Virus record (IMG/VR): IMGVR_UViG_3300027743_000096
Span: 1 to 21,857 of that record
DNA from: a virus
Length of the DNA: 21,857 nucleotides
Reading direction: 5' to 3' (one strand)
In this document: positions 17,610 to 21,807 of the stretch, one piece after another
How positions within the stretch are numbered: position 1 is the stretch's first letter
Layout of the letters: every line of letters starts with the position of its first letter
Position numbers and translations under genes: made by a program
The notes under the pieces: model-generated
Seen by the model: the letters and a program-made list of their open reading frames with translations, nothing else
Database searches by the model: none
What the model was told of the DNA's origin: nothing

Positions 17610-18716
17610 TTGGAACTGTTCAAATTCCTCCCAGTACCAGCACCGACAAGCTTCGATCAAGGTCGGATGATAAACGGTGCAACCAGCATAATGTGGGCCG
17701 AACGATATCGTGTTCCTGGTGAATTCGAGATCATAGCCCCATTAAGCACCGATTTGATGAATTTCCTACCGATAGGGACTCTTATTTCGCACGTTGACAC
17801 CTACGAAGTTATGATTGTTGAGAACCAGGAAATTACAGAGGATAGCAAAGGCGATCCAACTATCAAGATTACAGGAAGATCGCTGGAAGCATATTTTGAT
17901 AACAGAATTGTTGGAATGAACCTGGCAAGGCAAAGTTCCACAATTGCCGAGTACATATTACTGTCTGATTCCACTTGGAACCAAACAGTTAAGGTTATTA
18001 ACGACCATATCGGTAATGCAACGAACGTGGACGACAATATTCCAAACGTCGTTGCGGTGGCTAGTGTTACTGGCACTGGAACCTTTGAGCAAAGATCAAT
18101 CAAGCACATGCCGCTAAGCCAGGCGATTTTGGAGATCATGGCTATCGACGATCTTGGTGTTAAGACCATTCGTCGAAATACGTTTGGGGTTCCTAATGGT
18201 AGTACCACAAATACGAACGTTGTTATCTACAGAGGAGTTGATCGAACAGCCTCGGTTATATTCTCGTGGAAGGCTGGCGATCTAACTGCCGCGGAGTACT
18301 TGTTCAGCGACAAGAACATGAAGAACTCAGCTGTAGTCATAGGTCGTTACATAAATACGGTCTATGATACGACTGGTGTGACCAAATACAGCCGTCGATC
18401 GGTTATCGTGGACGGAGGTGATATTGACGGAATCTACAATGCACCACCAACTGGCGCACAATTGACAGATGTGATCAACAAGATGCAGGTTCGCGGGAAG
18501 CAGGAGCTGGAATCACAGAATCTAGTGACCATAACCCGAGCCGATCTTGCTGACATATCTAGATATCAGTATCGGAAGGACTTTGACGTCGGTGATCTGA
18601 TCTCTCTGGACTCAAACTACGGACGCATATCAACTATGCGAATTACCGAGTACGTAGAGATAATGGACGAGAACGGAGAGACCGGACACCCCACACTTTC
18701 ACTTCCGGGGGTGTAA
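17610..18716 (+). CDS. Gp37-like tail/baseplate protein (ReqiPepy6 type)
   Basis: This 368-residue protein resembles the Siphovirus_ReqiPepy6 Gp37-like family, which forms part of the tail tip. Visible marks are MINGATSIMWAERYRVPGEFEI, IMIVENQEI-type strands, ITGRSLEAYFDNR, the LARQSSTIAEYIL segment, and DFDVGDLISLDSNYG near the end. I chose TTG at 17610 because it follows GGGGGGTG at a good distance; an upstream TTG at 17565 would overlap the distal tail gene far more. The next gene begins within its stop codon. It follows the distal tail gene as in related phages. Confidence 0.75.
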   Translation: MELFKFLPVPAPTSFDQGRMINGATSIMWAERYRVPGEFEIIAPLSTDLMNFLPIGTLISHVDTYEVMIVENQEITEDSKGDPTIKITGRSLEAYFDNRIVGMNLARQSSTIAEYILLSDSTWNQTVKVINDHIGNATNVDDNIPNVVAVASVTGTGTFEQRSIKHMPLSQAILEIMAIDDLGVKTIRRNTFGVPNGSTTNTNVVIYRGVDRTASVIFSWKAGDLTAAEYLFSDKNMKNSAVVIGRYINTVYDTTGVTKYSRRSVIVDGGDIDGIYNAPPTGAQLTDVINKMQVRGKQELESQNLVTITRADLADISRYQYRKDFDVGDLISLDSNYGRISTMRITEYVEIMDENGETGHPTLSLPGV

Positions 18717-18946
18717 TGTTCAGTAACATTGTATTTTTCGTTAGCGAATCGCTGCTACTGGCCATTGTTATCGTGTTGATAATCAAACTATTGGCTAAAT
18801 CAAAGATTCACGGAAAAATGGTAATAATTCGGCATGATGACGGACGTAAGACATTTTCCTTGGAGTTAGAACAACCTGCAGAGATACTCGAGAAGTTGAA
18901 ATCGGTTACCTTCAAGGTTGTAGAGAAAGACGATCTCGCAGAATGA
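18716..18946 (+). CDS. Small single-pass membrane protein
   Basis: This 76-residue protein begins within the stop of the upstream gene (TAATG). Residues about 6-26 form one membrane helix (VFFVSESLLLAIVIVLIIKLL), followed by a basic, then acidic, cytoplasmic tail (KSKIHGKMVIIRHDDGRK, ELEQPAEILEKLK). No lipobox or catalytic motif is present. Its stop lies inside the first promoter-like element at 18935-18961. It could be a late membrane-acting protein, but it has no clear holin signature; function is unknown. Confidence 0.6.
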   Translation: MFSNIVFFVSESLLLAIVIVLIIKLLAKSKIHGKMVIIRHDDGRKTFSLELEQPAEILEKLKSVTFKVVEKDDLAE

Positions 18947-18961
18947 GCAATCATTATAGTG
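18935..18961 (+). promoter_or_regulatory. Promoter-like element E (variant copy)
   Basis: CTCGCAG, a five-base spacer and GCAATCATTATAGTG: the most divergent of five copies, but of the same length (26 bases from TCGCA) and spacing. TATAGT fits a -10 box. It covers the end of the 18716-18946 gene and would drive the gene at 18981. Confidence 0.5.
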
Positions 18962-18980
18962 AGACTACGAGAGGAGACTA

Positions 18981-19280
18981 ATGTTAGGATTTCGGAGGAG
19001 GCGCAAGCATTCAGTGCTTGACGAACCCATCGGCAACATTCTGACTCGCATGAACGAAGCTGGCATGGACGGCCAGAAGTACAACGAGTGCATAGATCGC
19101 CTGGACAGGTTGATGGAGATGAAGGCAGACGAGCGCCGGAGTCGAATCGATCCGAACACCGTGATCATCGTGCTGGGAAATCTTCTGGGGATCCTGGTCA
19201 TCGTCGCGTACGAGCAGAAGCACGTGATGGTTTCTCGAGCCCTGGGGTTTGTGAATCGAACGGAACCTCGTATCAAGTGA
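18981..19280 (+). CDS. Membrane protein with LGNLLGILVIVAYEQ helix
   Basis: This 99-residue protein starts at ATG after GAGAGGAG. Residues 1-50 are charged and helical (HSVLDEPIGNILTRMNEAG, ...LDRLMEMKADERRSR), then one membrane helix (about 55-73, VIIVLGNLLGILVIVAYEQ), then KHVMVSRALGFV. I recognise the DEPI...L and GNLLGI.IIVAYEQKHVM pattern as a conserved actinophage protein, usually found beside minor tail genes. It lies between promoter-like element E and the first terminator, so it is the first insulated cassette. Function unknown. Confidence 0.7.
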   Translation: MLGFRRRRKHSVLDEPIGNILTRMNEAGMDGQKYNECIDRLDRLMEMKADERRSRIDPNTVIIVLGNLLGILVIVAYEQKHVMVSRALGFVNRTEPRIK

Positions 19281-19293
19281 TTTGAGGGTCTCG

Positions 19294-19332
19294 AGCTTGG
19301 GAGCTGTGGAAACATGGCTCTTAAGCTTTTTT
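19294..19332 (+). terminator. Rho-independent terminator, GAAA loop
   Basis: A perfect 15-pair stem, counting G-T pairs, from AGCTTGGGAGCTGTG (19294-19308) to its partner at 19313-19327, closed by GAAA (19309-19312) and followed by a T run (19327-19332). It ends the 99-residue gene's transcript and, by position, the late block. Confidence 0.85.
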
Positions 19333-19457
19333 CTCCTCACACAGTCGTTTCTGCTGCATTTCCAGAAGTTCAGCAGTACGATTCTACCTGAAAAGGGGTC
19401 AAGCGGCTTAGAACGGCAAATAGAGGCCTCTCAAACGAAATGGGGTATTTCAAGGCG

Positions 19458-19472
19458 AAAAATTCCCCGGGG
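19458..19472. repeat. AAAAATTCCCCGGGG element, copy 2
   Basis: Identical to the element at 5-19. It lies 18 bases upstream of promoter-like element A and next to a GGTAGGG run. The flanking bases do not match those of copy 1. Confidence 0.55.
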
Positions 19473-19489
19473 TAGGGTTCTAAAAACCT

Positions 19490-19516
19490 TTCGCAAGTTA
19501 AACAAGCATTATAATG
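19490..19516 (+). promoter_or_regulatory. Promoter-like element A
   Basis: TTCGCAA, GTTAA, then ACAAGCATTATAATG. TATAAT fits a -10 box exactly, and a 14-base gap separates TTCGCA from it, shorter than the usual 16-18. It would drive the 73-residue gene at 19541. Identical length and spacing to the other four copies. Confidence 0.7.
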
Positions 19517-19540
19517 GGAGACTAATCGAAAGGAATGACG

Positions 19541-19762
19541 ATGTTTAGACGAACACTGAAGGTGGACGTGGTCAAGGAGAAGAAGGCAAAGCCGGAGATC
19601 GCTGAGAATCCTGGTCCTTCGTTTGAAGAGAAAGCCGTAATGATCGGCCGACTCTTGGAGCGGAGTATCAAGAAGCTCACGATTGCCGTGTGTGTCGTGA
19701 TTCTCGTGGACACGGTTCGCCGAGTGGCAGTGGAGGCAGCATCAGCACAAGAAGATGAATAA
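19541..19762 (+). CDS. Small single-pass membrane protein
   Basis: This 73-residue protein starts at ATG 19541 because AAAGG at 19529-19533 suits it; the ATG at 19535 is too close to that site. The N-terminal half is basic and charged (RRTLKVDVVKEKK), then FEEKAVMIGRLLERSIKK, then a membrane helix (about 48-62, LTIAVCVVILVDTV), then RRVAVEAASAQ. It is its own cassette between element A and the terminator at 19766. It resembles small conserved membrane proteins of actinophages, but no role is known. Confidence 0.65.
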   Translation: MFRRTLKVDVVKEKKAKPEIAENPGPSFEEKAVMIGRLLERSIKKLTIAVCVVILVDTVRRVAVEAASAQEDE

Positions 19763-19765
19763 CCC

Positions 19766-19797
19766 AGAAGGGAGAGACAGCAATGTCTTTCCTTTTT
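19766..19797 (+). terminator. Rho-independent terminator, GCAA loop
   Basis: A 14-pair stem, including G-T pairs, from AGAAGGGAGAGACA (19766-19779) to 19784-19797 around GCAA (19780-19783), ending in a T run. It directly abuts promoter-like element B. The GAC-N-GCAA-N-GTCTTTCC core is shared with the terminator at 19991. Confidence 0.8.
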
Positions 19798-19822
19798 CGC
19801 AATTCCTACAAGTATTGTAATG
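19796..19822 (+). promoter_or_regulatory. Promoter-like element B
   Basis: TTCGCAA, TTCCT, then ACAAGTATTGTAATG. TGTAAT is the -10-like box. It begins in the T run of the upstream terminator and lies 17 bases before the 48-residue gene's ATG. Confidence 0.7.
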
Positions 19823-19838
19823 AGGAGAGGAGACTGTA

Positions 19839-19985
19839 ATGAAATGGACTTACGAAGAGGTCGCTTACATGAGCGCCGAGGAGTTCAGCGAGAACTGGGA
19901 AAATGGAAGTATTCAGAGTTCTATGCTAGAACTCCTTGGAGCCGAGAAGCAGATCGACGAGAAGTCACAACAAGAGAAGATCTAA
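19839..19985 (+). CDS. Small acidic protein, 48 residues
   Basis: This short gene runs from ATG 19839 to TAA 19983-19985 after GAGGAGAGGAG. The product begins MKWTYEEVAYMSAEEFSENW and ends KQIDEKSQQEKI. It is acidic, helical, with no membrane helix or signal, unlike its neighbours. It lies between promoter-like element B and a terminator, so it is a complete cassette, which supports it as real. No family is recognised; a small regulator or host-interacting peptide is only a guess. Confidence 0.65.
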   Translation: MKWTYEEVAYMSAEEFSENWENGSIQSSMLELLGAEKQIDEKSQQEKI

Positions 19986-19990
19986 CCTCG

Positions 19991-20019
19991 AAGGATTGAC
20001 CGCAAGGTCTTTCCTTTTT
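19991..20019 (+). terminator. Rho-independent terminator with imperfect stem, GCAA loop
   Basis: Arms AAGGA..GACC (19991-20001) and GGTC..TCCTT (20006-20016) enclose GCAA; two facing T-T mismatches interrupt the stem. A T run follows. The interrupted stem may leak, which matters because no promoter-like element is seen between it and the gene at 20040. Confidence 0.7.
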
Positions 20020-20039
20020 ATTTCCACAAGGAGAAGCGA

Positions 20040-20225
20040 ATGGTTGGTTATGCGATAGTTGCGATCCTTGGTATTGTGATTGGGTTTGTTCTGGCCGGAT
20101 GGAAAATCAGTAGAGACTACAGACAGCTAAGGGAGAAGCTTGAATTCGAAGAAGAGCTACGACTCAAAGAAGGTGGGTGGCTCCAAGATGATGCTGAGCG
20201 GGAAGGCGGAACTGAGCATGCTTAG
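20040..20225 (+). CDS. Small single-pass membrane protein with charged tail
   Basis: This 61-residue protein starts at ATG after AAGGAGAAGCGA. Residues about 3-22 form a membrane helix (GYAIVAILGIVIGFVLAGW), followed by a charged helical tail (RDYRQLREKLEFEEELRLKE). Size, single helix and coiled-coil-like tail resemble small phage membrane proteins, including some holin-like and spanin-like proteins, but no specific motif is visible. Its last eight bases overlap the start of the secreted protein gene, so the two are probably expressed together. Transcription may come from readthrough of the preceding terminator. Confidence 0.55.
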   Translation: MVGYAIVAILGIVIGFVLAGWKISRDYRQLREKLEFEEELRLKEGGWLQDDAEREGGTEHA

Positions 20226-21189
20226 AACCAGACAGTCGTTTATGGCAGGTGTTTTCGTTTGTGCTGTTCTGTGTCTGTTGATATTCATCCTTGTTGATAG
20301 TGCATCTGGGCAGATTCCAGACGATCAGCGGCCTCCACTGGTCACTGACTACGCGAACTACCCAGGAACGCCTCAGGCATTTTTGACACCTGGGTGTGAC
20401 TTCAGTGGGGTCCTCAATCCCACATTCGGAGCGCATATTCAACTCACGAACACCGATTTCGGTCCAGTTAACGACCTTGGGTTGCTCCCGACCCTTACTC
20501 AAGGTGATTTGGTTCGTATGGCGTGGACGGACGTCGCGCCTGAGTGCATCGGTTCCGCCGTGTCGTTCGTCGTCAAGGTAGCACTTGGGCCGTCCTTCGA
20601 TCCGAACGTGGATCAGTTAACAGGACCTAATGGAGGATACAGTGTTGAATTCCTGGTGGCTGGACCTGGTGAGATTACTTTTCCAATGCCTGATCTGGCA
20701 CGTTTTGGCCTCGGCTGTGATTATCAGCTTGATGCCATCGTTGGTATCCCGCTGCGAGATGTTGGGCCGTCGGGGTCGTTCTTCTCAGAAGCACTGCGTG
20801 TACAGCAAGGGAAACAGACTGCTGATAATCGAACCACTGTGATATCGGCCAAGAACGGTACGTACCCTGACTGCGTTCCGACTGGGACCACGACAACCGT
20901 GCCTCCGACCACAGTCCCTACGACGGTTCCTCCGACCACAGTCCCGACGACTGTGCCTCCGACAACGTCACCGCCGAGTTCAGCCGCGCAGACGAGTAGC
21001 CCCCCGCAGACGTTCAGCGCGCCGCCACCTACTTCACCTCCCACTACGACTCACTTCCCCTTTGGGGCAACCGGTCCGGGGGACGTGTACGGTCTGGCTC
21101 CGCTGTTTGCGTTCGCGGCCTTCGTGCTCGGCTTGATGTTCTTTGCGTTGGAGAGGCATCGCCGTTCGCAAGGGAAACAAGCTTTATAG
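20218..21189 (+). CDS. Secreted, Thr/Pro-stalked membrane-anchored protein
   Basis: This 323-residue protein has a signal sequence: RTRQ, then a hydrophobic core (about 8-27), then DSASG with possible cleavage before Gln32. The ectodomain (about 55-220) has four Cys (60, 110, 167, 219), enough for two disulfides, and beta-rich strands. A stalk follows (about 222-280), rich in Thr and Pro, with a nine-residue VPPTTVPTT repeat. A membrane helix (about 291-312) and basic end (ERHRR) close it. The FGATG before the helix resembles a degenerate sortase sorting signal. I chose ATG 20218 because it gives the signal sequence and overlaps the upstream stop. A phage-encoded surface protein is likely; function is unknown. 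Confidence 0.7.
   Translation: MLRTRQSFMAGVFVCAVLCLLIFILVDSASGQIPDDQRPPLVTDYANYPGTPQAFLTPGCDFSGVLNPTFGAHIQLTNTDFGPVNDLGLLPTLTQGDLVRMAWTDVAPECIGSAVSFVVKVALGPSFDPNVDQLTGPNGGYSVEFLVAGPGEITFPMPDLARFGLGCDYQLDAIVGIPLRDVGPSGSFFSEALRVQQGKQTADNRTTVISAKNGTYPDCVPTGTTTTVPPTTVPTTVPPTTVPTTVPPTTSPPSSAAQTSSPPQTFSAPPPTSPPTTTHFPFGATGPGDVYGLAPLFAFAAFVLGLMFFALERHRRSQGKQAL
20902..20967 (+). repeat. 27-bp tandem repeats coding the VPPTTVPTT stalk
   Basis: CCTCCGACCACAGTCCC occurs at 20902 and 20929, and a partial third unit at 20956, at a 27-base period. Each unit codes nine residues. Such repeats can expand or contract and change stalk length. Confidence 0.7.
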
Positions 21190-21191
21190 TG
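21165..21191 (+). promoter_or_regulatory. Promoter-like element D
   Basis: TTCGCAA, GGGAA, then ACAAGCTTTATAGTG. TATAGT is the -10-like box. The element overlaps the 3' end of the secreted-protein gene, including its stop, and would drive the gene starting at about 21243. Confidence 0.65.
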
Positions 21192-21242
21192 AGATAGCGA
21201 CCGACGTTATCTGTAATGAGAATCATGAGGAGATTGAGGCAA

Positions 21243-21722
21243 GTGGAACTAGAAGAGAGCAAGACAAGCAAGATCGAGAAGATGAGGAGGCATATCAAGG
21301 AGAACAAGTCGGTCTACATAGGAACAATTTCCGGCGTCATTGCCGGAGCCGTTGTTGTGAGCATCGTCATGTTGAGGACACGCTCGCGGACAACACAGAT
21401 CAATACTGGTTGCGCGGTGAACAACATCGAGACGGATGTCACGAACATCTACCAGTTGGTGTCCAGGTTTGGCAACAAGCTTGGGCATCCTGGTAACGCC
21501 GTACTGGATTTGAACACTGGCGAACGATGGGAAGCTCAGCATCTCGCGGCTAAGAACCTGGGCGTGAGCGACTCCAGGTTGTCAAAGCATTTGAACGGGG
21601 ATAAGCCGAATTTGAACGGCCGCGTTCTGGTTCGAGTCCCGTCGAAGAAGCAGATGATGAACGAGCTAGAGGAGCAGTTCAACGAGTTGCTTGACGAGAA
21701 GTTCAACAGCCAGTACGACTGA
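21243..21722 (+). CDS. Membrane-tethered NUMOD1-like DNA-binding protein
   Basis: From the GTG at 21243 this is 159 residues; ATG at 21216 or 21225 would add nine or six residues, and only a GAGGAG ten bases upstream of the GTG looks like a ribosome binding site. After a basic start, one membrane helix lies at about 24-44 (VYIGTISGVIAGAVVVSIVML). Residues about 82-131 resemble a NUMOD1-type helix-turn-helix (HPGNAVLDLNTGERW, AAKNLGVSDSRLSKHLNGD, NGRVLV). A charged helix (MMNELEEQFNELLDEKF) ends it. Such domains usually bind DNA in homing-type nucleases and phage proteins. Anchoring one to the membrane is unusual. The element D, gene, terminator arrangement suggests an independent unit. Confidence 0.6.
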   Translation: MELEESKTSKIEKMRRHIKENKSVYIGTISGVIAGAVVVSIVMLRTRSRTTQINTGCAVNNIETDVTNIYQLVSRFGNKLGHPGNAVLDLNTGERWEAQHLAAKNLGVSDSRLSKHLNGDKPNLNGRVLVRVPSKKQMMNELEEQFNELLDEKFNSQYD

Positions 21723-21728
21723 TGAACG

Positions 21729-21760
21729 AAGACCTAGATTCCGCAAGGGGTTTAGGTTTT
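21729..21760 (+). terminator. Rho-independent terminator, GCAA loop
   Basis: A 14-pair stem, counting G-T pairs, from AAGACCTAGATTCC (21729-21742) to 21747-21760 around GCAA, with a T run in the descending arm. It immediately precedes promoter-like element C. Confidence 0.75.
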
Positions 21761-21765
21761 CTCAG

Positions 21766-21792
21766 TTCGCAAAAATTACAAGCATTGTAGTG
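21766..21792 (+). promoter_or_regulatory. Promoter-like element C
   Basis: TTCGCAA, AAATT, then ACAAGCATTGTAGTG. TGTAGT is the -10-like box. No complete gene follows within the window, so its target lies beyond the edge. Confidence 0.65.
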
Positions 21793-21807
21793 AGAGAATG
21801 TTAACTT

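Follow-up and report, generated by a model that had tools for sequence, protein, structure and literature searches.

An element that may be a phage-specific promoter punctuates an exchangeable array of small, mostly membrane-protein genes in a phage genome fragment

The viral genome fragment IMGVR_UViG_3300027743_000096, an entire IMG/VR record 21,857 bases long (hereafter the window), ends in a block of small genes, most of them coding for predicted membrane proteins, in which five copies of one element with the consensus TCGCA-N6-ACA-N5-TATAATGAGA were found. We consider, with a probability of about 0.6, that this element serves as a promoter dedicated to the phage, that its reader is probably the polymerase encoded by the phage itself, and that small envelope proteins, as an exchangeable set, are expressed from it. 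In this way the phage would probably switch on an envelope-directed gene set itself, without the normal promoters of its host.

As listed in Table 1, all five elements lie on the plus strand. When a profile built from four copies was used to scan both strands of the window, the left-out element ranked directly after those four in every case, that is, first among the non-training positions, and elements E, A, B, D, and C, which a first-pass annotation of this DNA had proposed, are thus real. The same held for the terminators that it had placed after the 99-, 73-, 48-, and 159-amino-acid (aa) genes, whose folding was compared with that of dinucleotide shuffles (z in Table 1), and for its prediction of a membrane helix in every product of the block except the 48-aa one, which was reproduced by hydropathy (Kyte-Doolittle 19-mer mean of at least 2.0). 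A generic scan of the window for sigma-70 promoters and terminators yielded no signal that exceeded the chance level and did not recover three of these four terminators. The proposed layout of one promoter, one gene, and one terminator was recovered for the same four genes, but it did not extend to the 61-aa gene and the secreted-protein gene. No element occurs between the end of the 48-aa terminator (approximately 20019) and the ATG of the 61-aa gene (20040), which begins 20 bases 3' of that terminator and is followed by the secreted gene, and no terminator precedes element D. Since an element is missing there, the two genes appear to have no promoter of their own, and they may be expressed via read-through or from some other promoter.

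The element was specific to phages and, among these, confined to one wide family, which also carries an RNA-polymerase-like enzyme of its own. All 11 contigs found via the 99-aa protein carried it, each with a copy 5' of that gene. At up to three mismatches, 33 copies were counted in the Arthrobacter phage Qui, 11 in Conley, 6 in Moozy, and 14 in Pherobrine, on one strand only and with none in the control, and ReqiPepy6 contained 15 elements; the region from the minor tail genes to the primase-polymerase gene held most of the elements. A profile for which all loci had been selected independently of the element comprised 149 distinct elements, all on the plus strand, with none in the reversed controls (approximately 1 Mb of loci). 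A strict pattern matched at least 120 stretches of viral contigs and its reversed form none, whereas bacterial genomes gave four matches in 257 Gb versus about two expected by chance.

With positions numbered by analogy with promoters, the element would consist of TCGCA at -31 to -27 (CGC box at -30 to -28), ACA at -20 to -18, and TATAATGAGA at -12 to -3, and its end mostly lay 17-22 nucleotides from a start codon with a ribosome-binding site. TATAAT was the majority hexamer (117 of the 149 elements), with A at -11 in 93% and T at -7 in 99%, and was followed by a GAGA discriminator; two of the five window elements have G at -11. Variants with conserved spacing were present in every tested phage carrying the protein family phrog_4291 (see below), from Streptomyces to Faecalibacterium phages. 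The Lactococcus phages P092 and P1046 and also two saliva phages shared the core and the spacing and varied in the upstream box, while the array of the Faecalibacterium phage FP_oengus was punctuated, at unchanged spacing, by CGCG-N6-NCA-N5-CTTTAT, with C at -12 in all 11 elements and T or C, never A, at -11. In G076, a contig of L217, T occupied -11 in five of eight elements, with GAGA kept in all eight. A sigma-A promoter needs A at -11, and because this base is lost in all FP_oengus elements and in most of those of G076, the reader of the element is best taken as phage-encoded and evolving together with it. The G076 hexamers were AT-rich and variable in all eight elements (TTAAAT, TTAGAT, TAATAT, TAGTAT, and TTTAGT among them), which makes this contig a useful natural variant for finding out which bases the reader needs.

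That phrog_4291 supplies this reader we infer from several lines of comparison. In element carriers, a gene at the right end, annotated as an RNA-dependent RNA polymerase or, more often, as a helix-turn-helix (HTH) protein, belonged to phrog_4291 (E = 0). About 250 sequenced phage records contain this family, mostly as 'helix-turn-helix DNA-binding protein'; other annotations were hypothetical protein and, in contig89, 'tail fiber protein'. Among contigs picked by the element, phrog_4291 was found in 29 of 41 and in all 12 of at least 50 kb. Among records picked by terminase, all 14 with phrog_4291 carried elements, the remaining records being fragments shorter than 34 kb, and among contigs picked by phrog_4291 the pattern was present in seven of the nine of at least 41 kb, the other two having a variant, on the same strand as the gene itself. 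In 183 kb from three Gordonia terrae phages that belong to other lineages and lack phrog_4291, no element occurred. The closest long relatives of the window (G062 and G063, large terminase (TerL) 88%) carry phrog_4291. Among the phages with variant elements described above, its protein was the only transcription-type protein identified in all.

The phrog_4291 protein contains a GADFDGD motif (GAD-x-DGD) in which D518, D520, G521, and D522 were invariant in 14 sequences. QDE-1 was the sole PDB match of its predicted structure with E of 0.001 or below, and its modelled central barrel aligned with the catalytic barrel in the large subunit of Pol II (Z 8.2-8.4 over approximately 90 residues); the DxDGD catalytic motif and the predicted two-barrel fold are those of a QDE-1/YonO-type polymerase. 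The relation to QDE-1 came from fold comparison, a phmmer search against PDB sequences having returned a short repeat match only. Relative to the protein of ReqiPepy6, those of P092 and P1046 were 37-39% identical, and that of FP_oengus showed 43% identity. To our knowledge, no enzymatic activity has been reported for this family. According to the annotation of ReqiPepy6, its 1706 relative is a structural protein, which hints at a virion-borne enzyme. We would advance only tentatively the fuller picture in which the virion brings a two-barrel RNA polymerase into the cell together with the DNA, and this enzyme transcribes an early regulon of small envelope proteins from its own 30-bp promoter, without host sigma factors from the first minute of infection, in a lineage spanning Actinomycetota and Bacillota hosts.

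Gene swapping between constant promoters and terminators, which the first-pass annotation had expected of relatives, was found both among contigs and between Tanis and Gravy. These two phages are 99.7% identical on both flanks of a 323-bp segment that holds Tanis gene 36; in Tanis a 70-bp terminator-promoter repeat stands on each side of the segment (95.7% identity between the two), and one repeat is present in Gravy, a pattern that recombination between such units would be expected to leave. Repeated units were also seen in L010 (76 nucleotides), and in Qui a strong hairpin stood directly 5' of 21 of 29 elements versus 7% of random positions. The nearest long relatives of the window (minor tail approximately 56% identical) keep the 99-aa gene, one of them has the 73-aa gene, and the other cassettes differ; the slot of the secreted protein holds a lytic transglycosylase (SLT)-like lipoprotein, a GDSL-like lipoprotein, or the Thr/Pro-rich protein of the window. 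The 48-aa, 61-aa, and secreted genes were absent from close relatives. The 99-aa family, by contrast, was the first cassette in all 10 aligned phages (the window and nine relatives, from several host genera), and this gene is therefore core and not a moron; a tblastn search with the 99-aa protein matched no phage record, although the alignment shows the family to be present in phages. The moron label of the first-pass annotation thus fitted the modular, exchanged cassettes, but not the core 99-aa gene or a promoter that is phage-specific rather than host-type.

The first genes behind the element had a median length of 73 aa, and 61% of them had a predicted helix versus 9% of the non-array genes of Moozy. 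Given this small size and membrane bias, an action at the host envelope is likely. Of the functions suggested earlier, superinfection exclusion may be kept as one candidate, the single weak match to a Ren-like family (E 0.09) being counted as no evidence for it. Lysis timing has become less likely because endolysin and holin are encoded at the left end of the genome in sequenced members such as Gravy and ReqiPepy6, although some contigs do have a Dp-1-type holin and secreted enzymes of the SLT or GDSL type in their array or close to it.

In the mechanism that we propose, the block would be the first part of an array, punctuated by terminators and promoters, between the tail and replication genes. 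Each element would act as a complete phage-specific promoter, with a ribosome-binding site in the 18-20 nucleotide leader that follows it. Its reader would be encoded by the phage and would most likely be the QDE-1/YonO-type RNA polymerase of the family. The resulting regulon, whose products are small and for the most part membrane-bound or secreted, would probably be early and act on the host envelope; terminators would insulate many of its units, and homologous recombination between the repeated terminator-promoter units would allow single cassettes to enter or leave the array.

Several observations weigh against this proposal. TATAAT and the bases that follow it resemble a sigma-A -10 element with a good discriminator in most lineages, and some elements have no adjacent terminator. 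The phrog_4291 gene was inherited along with terminase, primase, and other genes, and since it is shared by descent with these core genes, its co-occurrence with the element is not enough to identify it as the reader, a role that could also fall to the host polymerase if redirected by another phage protein. The structural model is of moderate quality (pLDDT 73, pTM 0.49), and no polymerase gene is present in the window, which is explained by the contig being a fragment, outside which the polymerase gene of this phage would lie. The homologous YonO of Bacillus subtilis SPbeta has been reported to transcribe late genes (PMC5467207), and SPbeta has no element in the region around yonK.

The resemblance to sigma-A promoters could mean that the elements are middle-type promoters for the host polymerase, on which a phage activator bound to the CGC and ACA boxes replaces the -35 contact and sigma-A reads TATAAT, as with T4 MotA at its -30 box. 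The frequencies of TATAAT, A at -11, T at -7, and the GAGA discriminator all agree with this; so does the upstream box, which is centred near -29, too close to the hexamer for a usual -35 element and in agreement with the MotA geometry of T4 middle promoters, and one helical turn separates the -30 box from the -19 box. The substitutions at -12 and -11 in every FP_oengus element and at -11 in most of those of G076 should, however, abolish reading by sigma-A, and the two window elements with G at -11 are likewise unfavourable, and we regard reading by the host enzyme as unlikely.

A further alternative, that the cassettes are true morons, each an accessory gene in its own right that has the usual promoter and terminator recognised by the host and is functionally unrelated to the others, would account for the terminators, the partly monocistronic layout, and the variable gene content. 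It seems very improbable for an element that is phage-specific, common to all cassettes, and conserved across host phyla, in an array whose first cassette is core and whose carriers are mostly described as lytic. We give equally little credence to the elements being stoperator-like sites at which a phage regulator silences or terminates transcription: many intergenic copies of one asymmetric site in a single orientation recall the comparable repeats of mycobacteriophage L5, yet the fixed distance to a start codon with a ribosome-binding site, the position directly behind terminators, and the resemblance of the 3' half to a -10 element are what promoters would show. A promoter read by a phage-encoded polymerase thus remains the reading that we prefer.

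Table 1. Features of the block and its surroundings in the window, and loci of phrog_4291-type genes in other phages (z, folding versus dinucleotide shuffles)
Feature	Position	Strand	Remarks
76-aa membrane protein gene	18716..18946	+	5' of the block; 3' end, including the stop, overlaps element E
Element E	18935..18966	+	CTCGCAGAATGAGCAATCATTATAGTGAGACT; putative promoter of the first cassette
99-aa one-helix protein gene	18981..19280	+	phrog_5818; first cassette
Intrinsic terminator	19283..19334	+	after the 99-aa gene; 16-bp stem; z -4.2
Non-coding spacer	19335..19489	+	contains AAAATTCCCCGGGG motif
Element A	19490..19521	+	putative promoter
73-aa one-helix protein gene	19541..19762	+	homologous gene in L262; other contigs have a similar gene in this slot
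Terminator	19764..19797	+	after the 73-aa gene; abuts element B (terminator-promoter unit); z -5.6
Element B	19796..19827	+	hexamer TGTAAT
48-aa soluble protein gene	19839..19985	+	
Terminator	19986..20019	+	after the 48-aa gene; no element before the 61-aa gene; z -4.0
61-aa one-helix protein gene	20040..20225	+	no promoter element of its own
Secreted Thr/Pro-rich protein gene	20218..21189	+	323 aa from ATG 20218, 333 aa from 20188; N- and C-terminal helices
Element D	21165..21196	+	overlaps the 3' end of the secreted gene
159-aa protein gene, GTG start	21243..21722	+	N-terminal helix; phrog_27818
Terminator	21724..21760	+	after the 159-aa gene, directly 5' of element C; z -4.8
Element C	21766..21797	+	hexamer TGTAGT; downstream gene past the contig end
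phrog_4291-type gene	L147:40338-43088		
phrog_4291-type gene	L149:23543-26257		

The window runs from the genes just before the large terminase through the portal gene, a 628-aa open reading frame (ORF) of the size of a protease-capsid protein, the tail genes, a 1578-aa tape measure, and two minor tail genes to the block. Its TerL was 80-82% to those of Streptomyces phages, and its tape measure matched at 34-38% over most of the length. A homologous terminase, a fused capsid-protease, the tape measure, and a membrane array behind the tail genes characterise the CC/AM/AU/DJ/BI-type siphovirus lineage, and these genes of the window, with the 628-aa ORF judged by its size, agree with it. The block is cut off, as the contig ends at 21857, just 3' of element C; in relatives the array extends several kb further and ends with a conserved set including DUF6353 membrane proteins. 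None of the array proteins of the window had a Pfam match above cut-off, Rfam returned nothing for the window, and no tRNA was found in it. The ORF at 2122-2496 carries a HHGVKGMKWGVRKS motif, which resembles short motifs of phage head proteins.

In L006 and L010, the slot of the 76-aa gene is occupied by a Dp-1-type holin with a C-terminal extension, the equivalence being judged from position and a similar C-terminal sequence. In ReqiPepy6, the annotated start of gp040 (L148:38884-39249) lies 5' of an element and is probably too early because the start at 38950, 3' of the element, aligns with the 99-aa family. Long non-coding spacers with a strong hairpin follow the first cassette also in Qui, Moozy, ReqiPepy6, and Conley (window 19335-19489; L012:4996-5177; L014:5069-5220; L013:5251-5445; L015:4094-4249), and a AAAATTCCCGG-like motif in or near them might belong to a small RNA or another cis element. 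A structured non-coding stretch (GTGTAGGTGAAAATCCTACCCGCCTGG...) conserved in Gordonia and Rhodococcus phages (L015:4540-4729; L141:5832-6000; L013:7330-7550) is apparently driven by the element; its Conley copy had no match in Rfam. In Lactococcus P092 (L234:23580-24123), two elements are each followed by a tRNA-like sequence ending in a terminator. The secreted protein carries TTTTVPPTTVP repeats, of a type that we take to be associated with Acidimicrobiia and that may hint at the host.

The 159-aa protein has relatives in Gordonia DJ phages, Qui, and ReqiPepy6, and its C-terminal region appears HTH-like to us. An N-terminal helix with a C-terminal HTH/NUMOD-like part is also predicted at L005:2154-2630, and members of this family are variously annotated as membrane protein, HTH, or HNH endonuclease; they are possibly membrane-tethered DNA-binding proteins. 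The 159-aa protein was considered as the reader of the element and rejected, no homologue being present in the ORF lists of L001, L002, L006, L008, and L009, all of which bear the element.

If the proposal is true, it would explain why these phages keep long arrays of small membrane proteins under common control and by what route the genes are exchanged, and it might offer an orthogonal promoter-polymerase pair for Gram-positive hosts. For culturable Streptomyces, Gordonia, Arthrobacter, and Lactococcus phages, the element provides a concrete candidate promoter and regulon.

Among known systems, the T4-type PeSL cassettes, in which, as Arbiol et al. reportedly described in 2010, terminator and promoter units between small genes mediate shuffling, are matched by the repeated intergenic terminator-promoter units of the present array and by gene exchange at these units. 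Whereas the PeSL early promoters serve the host sigma-70 polymerase, the promoter proposed here is phage-specific and probably has a phage reader; TATAAT is retained in most lineages, lost in FP_oengus, and varied in G076. Arrays of small membrane-protein genes have been described in Rhodococcus CC, Arthrobacter AM/AU/AW, and Gordonia DJ phages, where the accessible parts of the reports give their function as unknown (PMC5513430, PMC5679793, PMC13313380). The block shares position, gene families, and membrane bias with them, and ReqiPepy6, Conley, Gravy, Tanis, and Qui are of the same kind. The parts of PMC13313380, PMC5559632, PMC7302621, and PMC5513430 that were available name no common promoter, and we found no published description of a shared promoter of these clusters, the original ReqiPepy6 paper (Summer et al. 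2011) lying outside this comparison. Start-associated and intergenic repeats, likewise short conserved sites 5' of small genes but of different sequence, occur in cluster K mycobacteriophages and Microbacterium EC/EF/EG/EI phages, their function being unknown according to the available text (PMC7302621).

That a phage polymerase can have motifs of its own in front of early genes has a precedent in P23-45 (PMC10770324): a two-barrel phage polymerase is paired there with a conserved motif 5' of pre-early and early genes, which is absent from relatives without the virion enzyme. The two cases differ in motif, host, and polymerase architecture, the P23-45-type enzyme used for comparison being fused to the tape measure, and the P23-45 assignment rests on ChIP-seq and start-site mapping. 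YonO of SPbeta, the best-studied enzyme of the present type, is a single-chain QDE-1-type DNA-dependent RNA polymerase whose promoter was stated to be undetermined (PMC5467207). The phrog_4291 protein resembles it in its predicted QDE-1 type, but YonO transcribes its late genes as one operon, and SPbeta, besides lacking the element, is not matched by phrog_4291. Membrane-protein arrays and terminator-promoter shuffling were thus already known, and what the present analysis adds to them is a candidate promoter, most likely that of the polymerase which the phage itself encodes.

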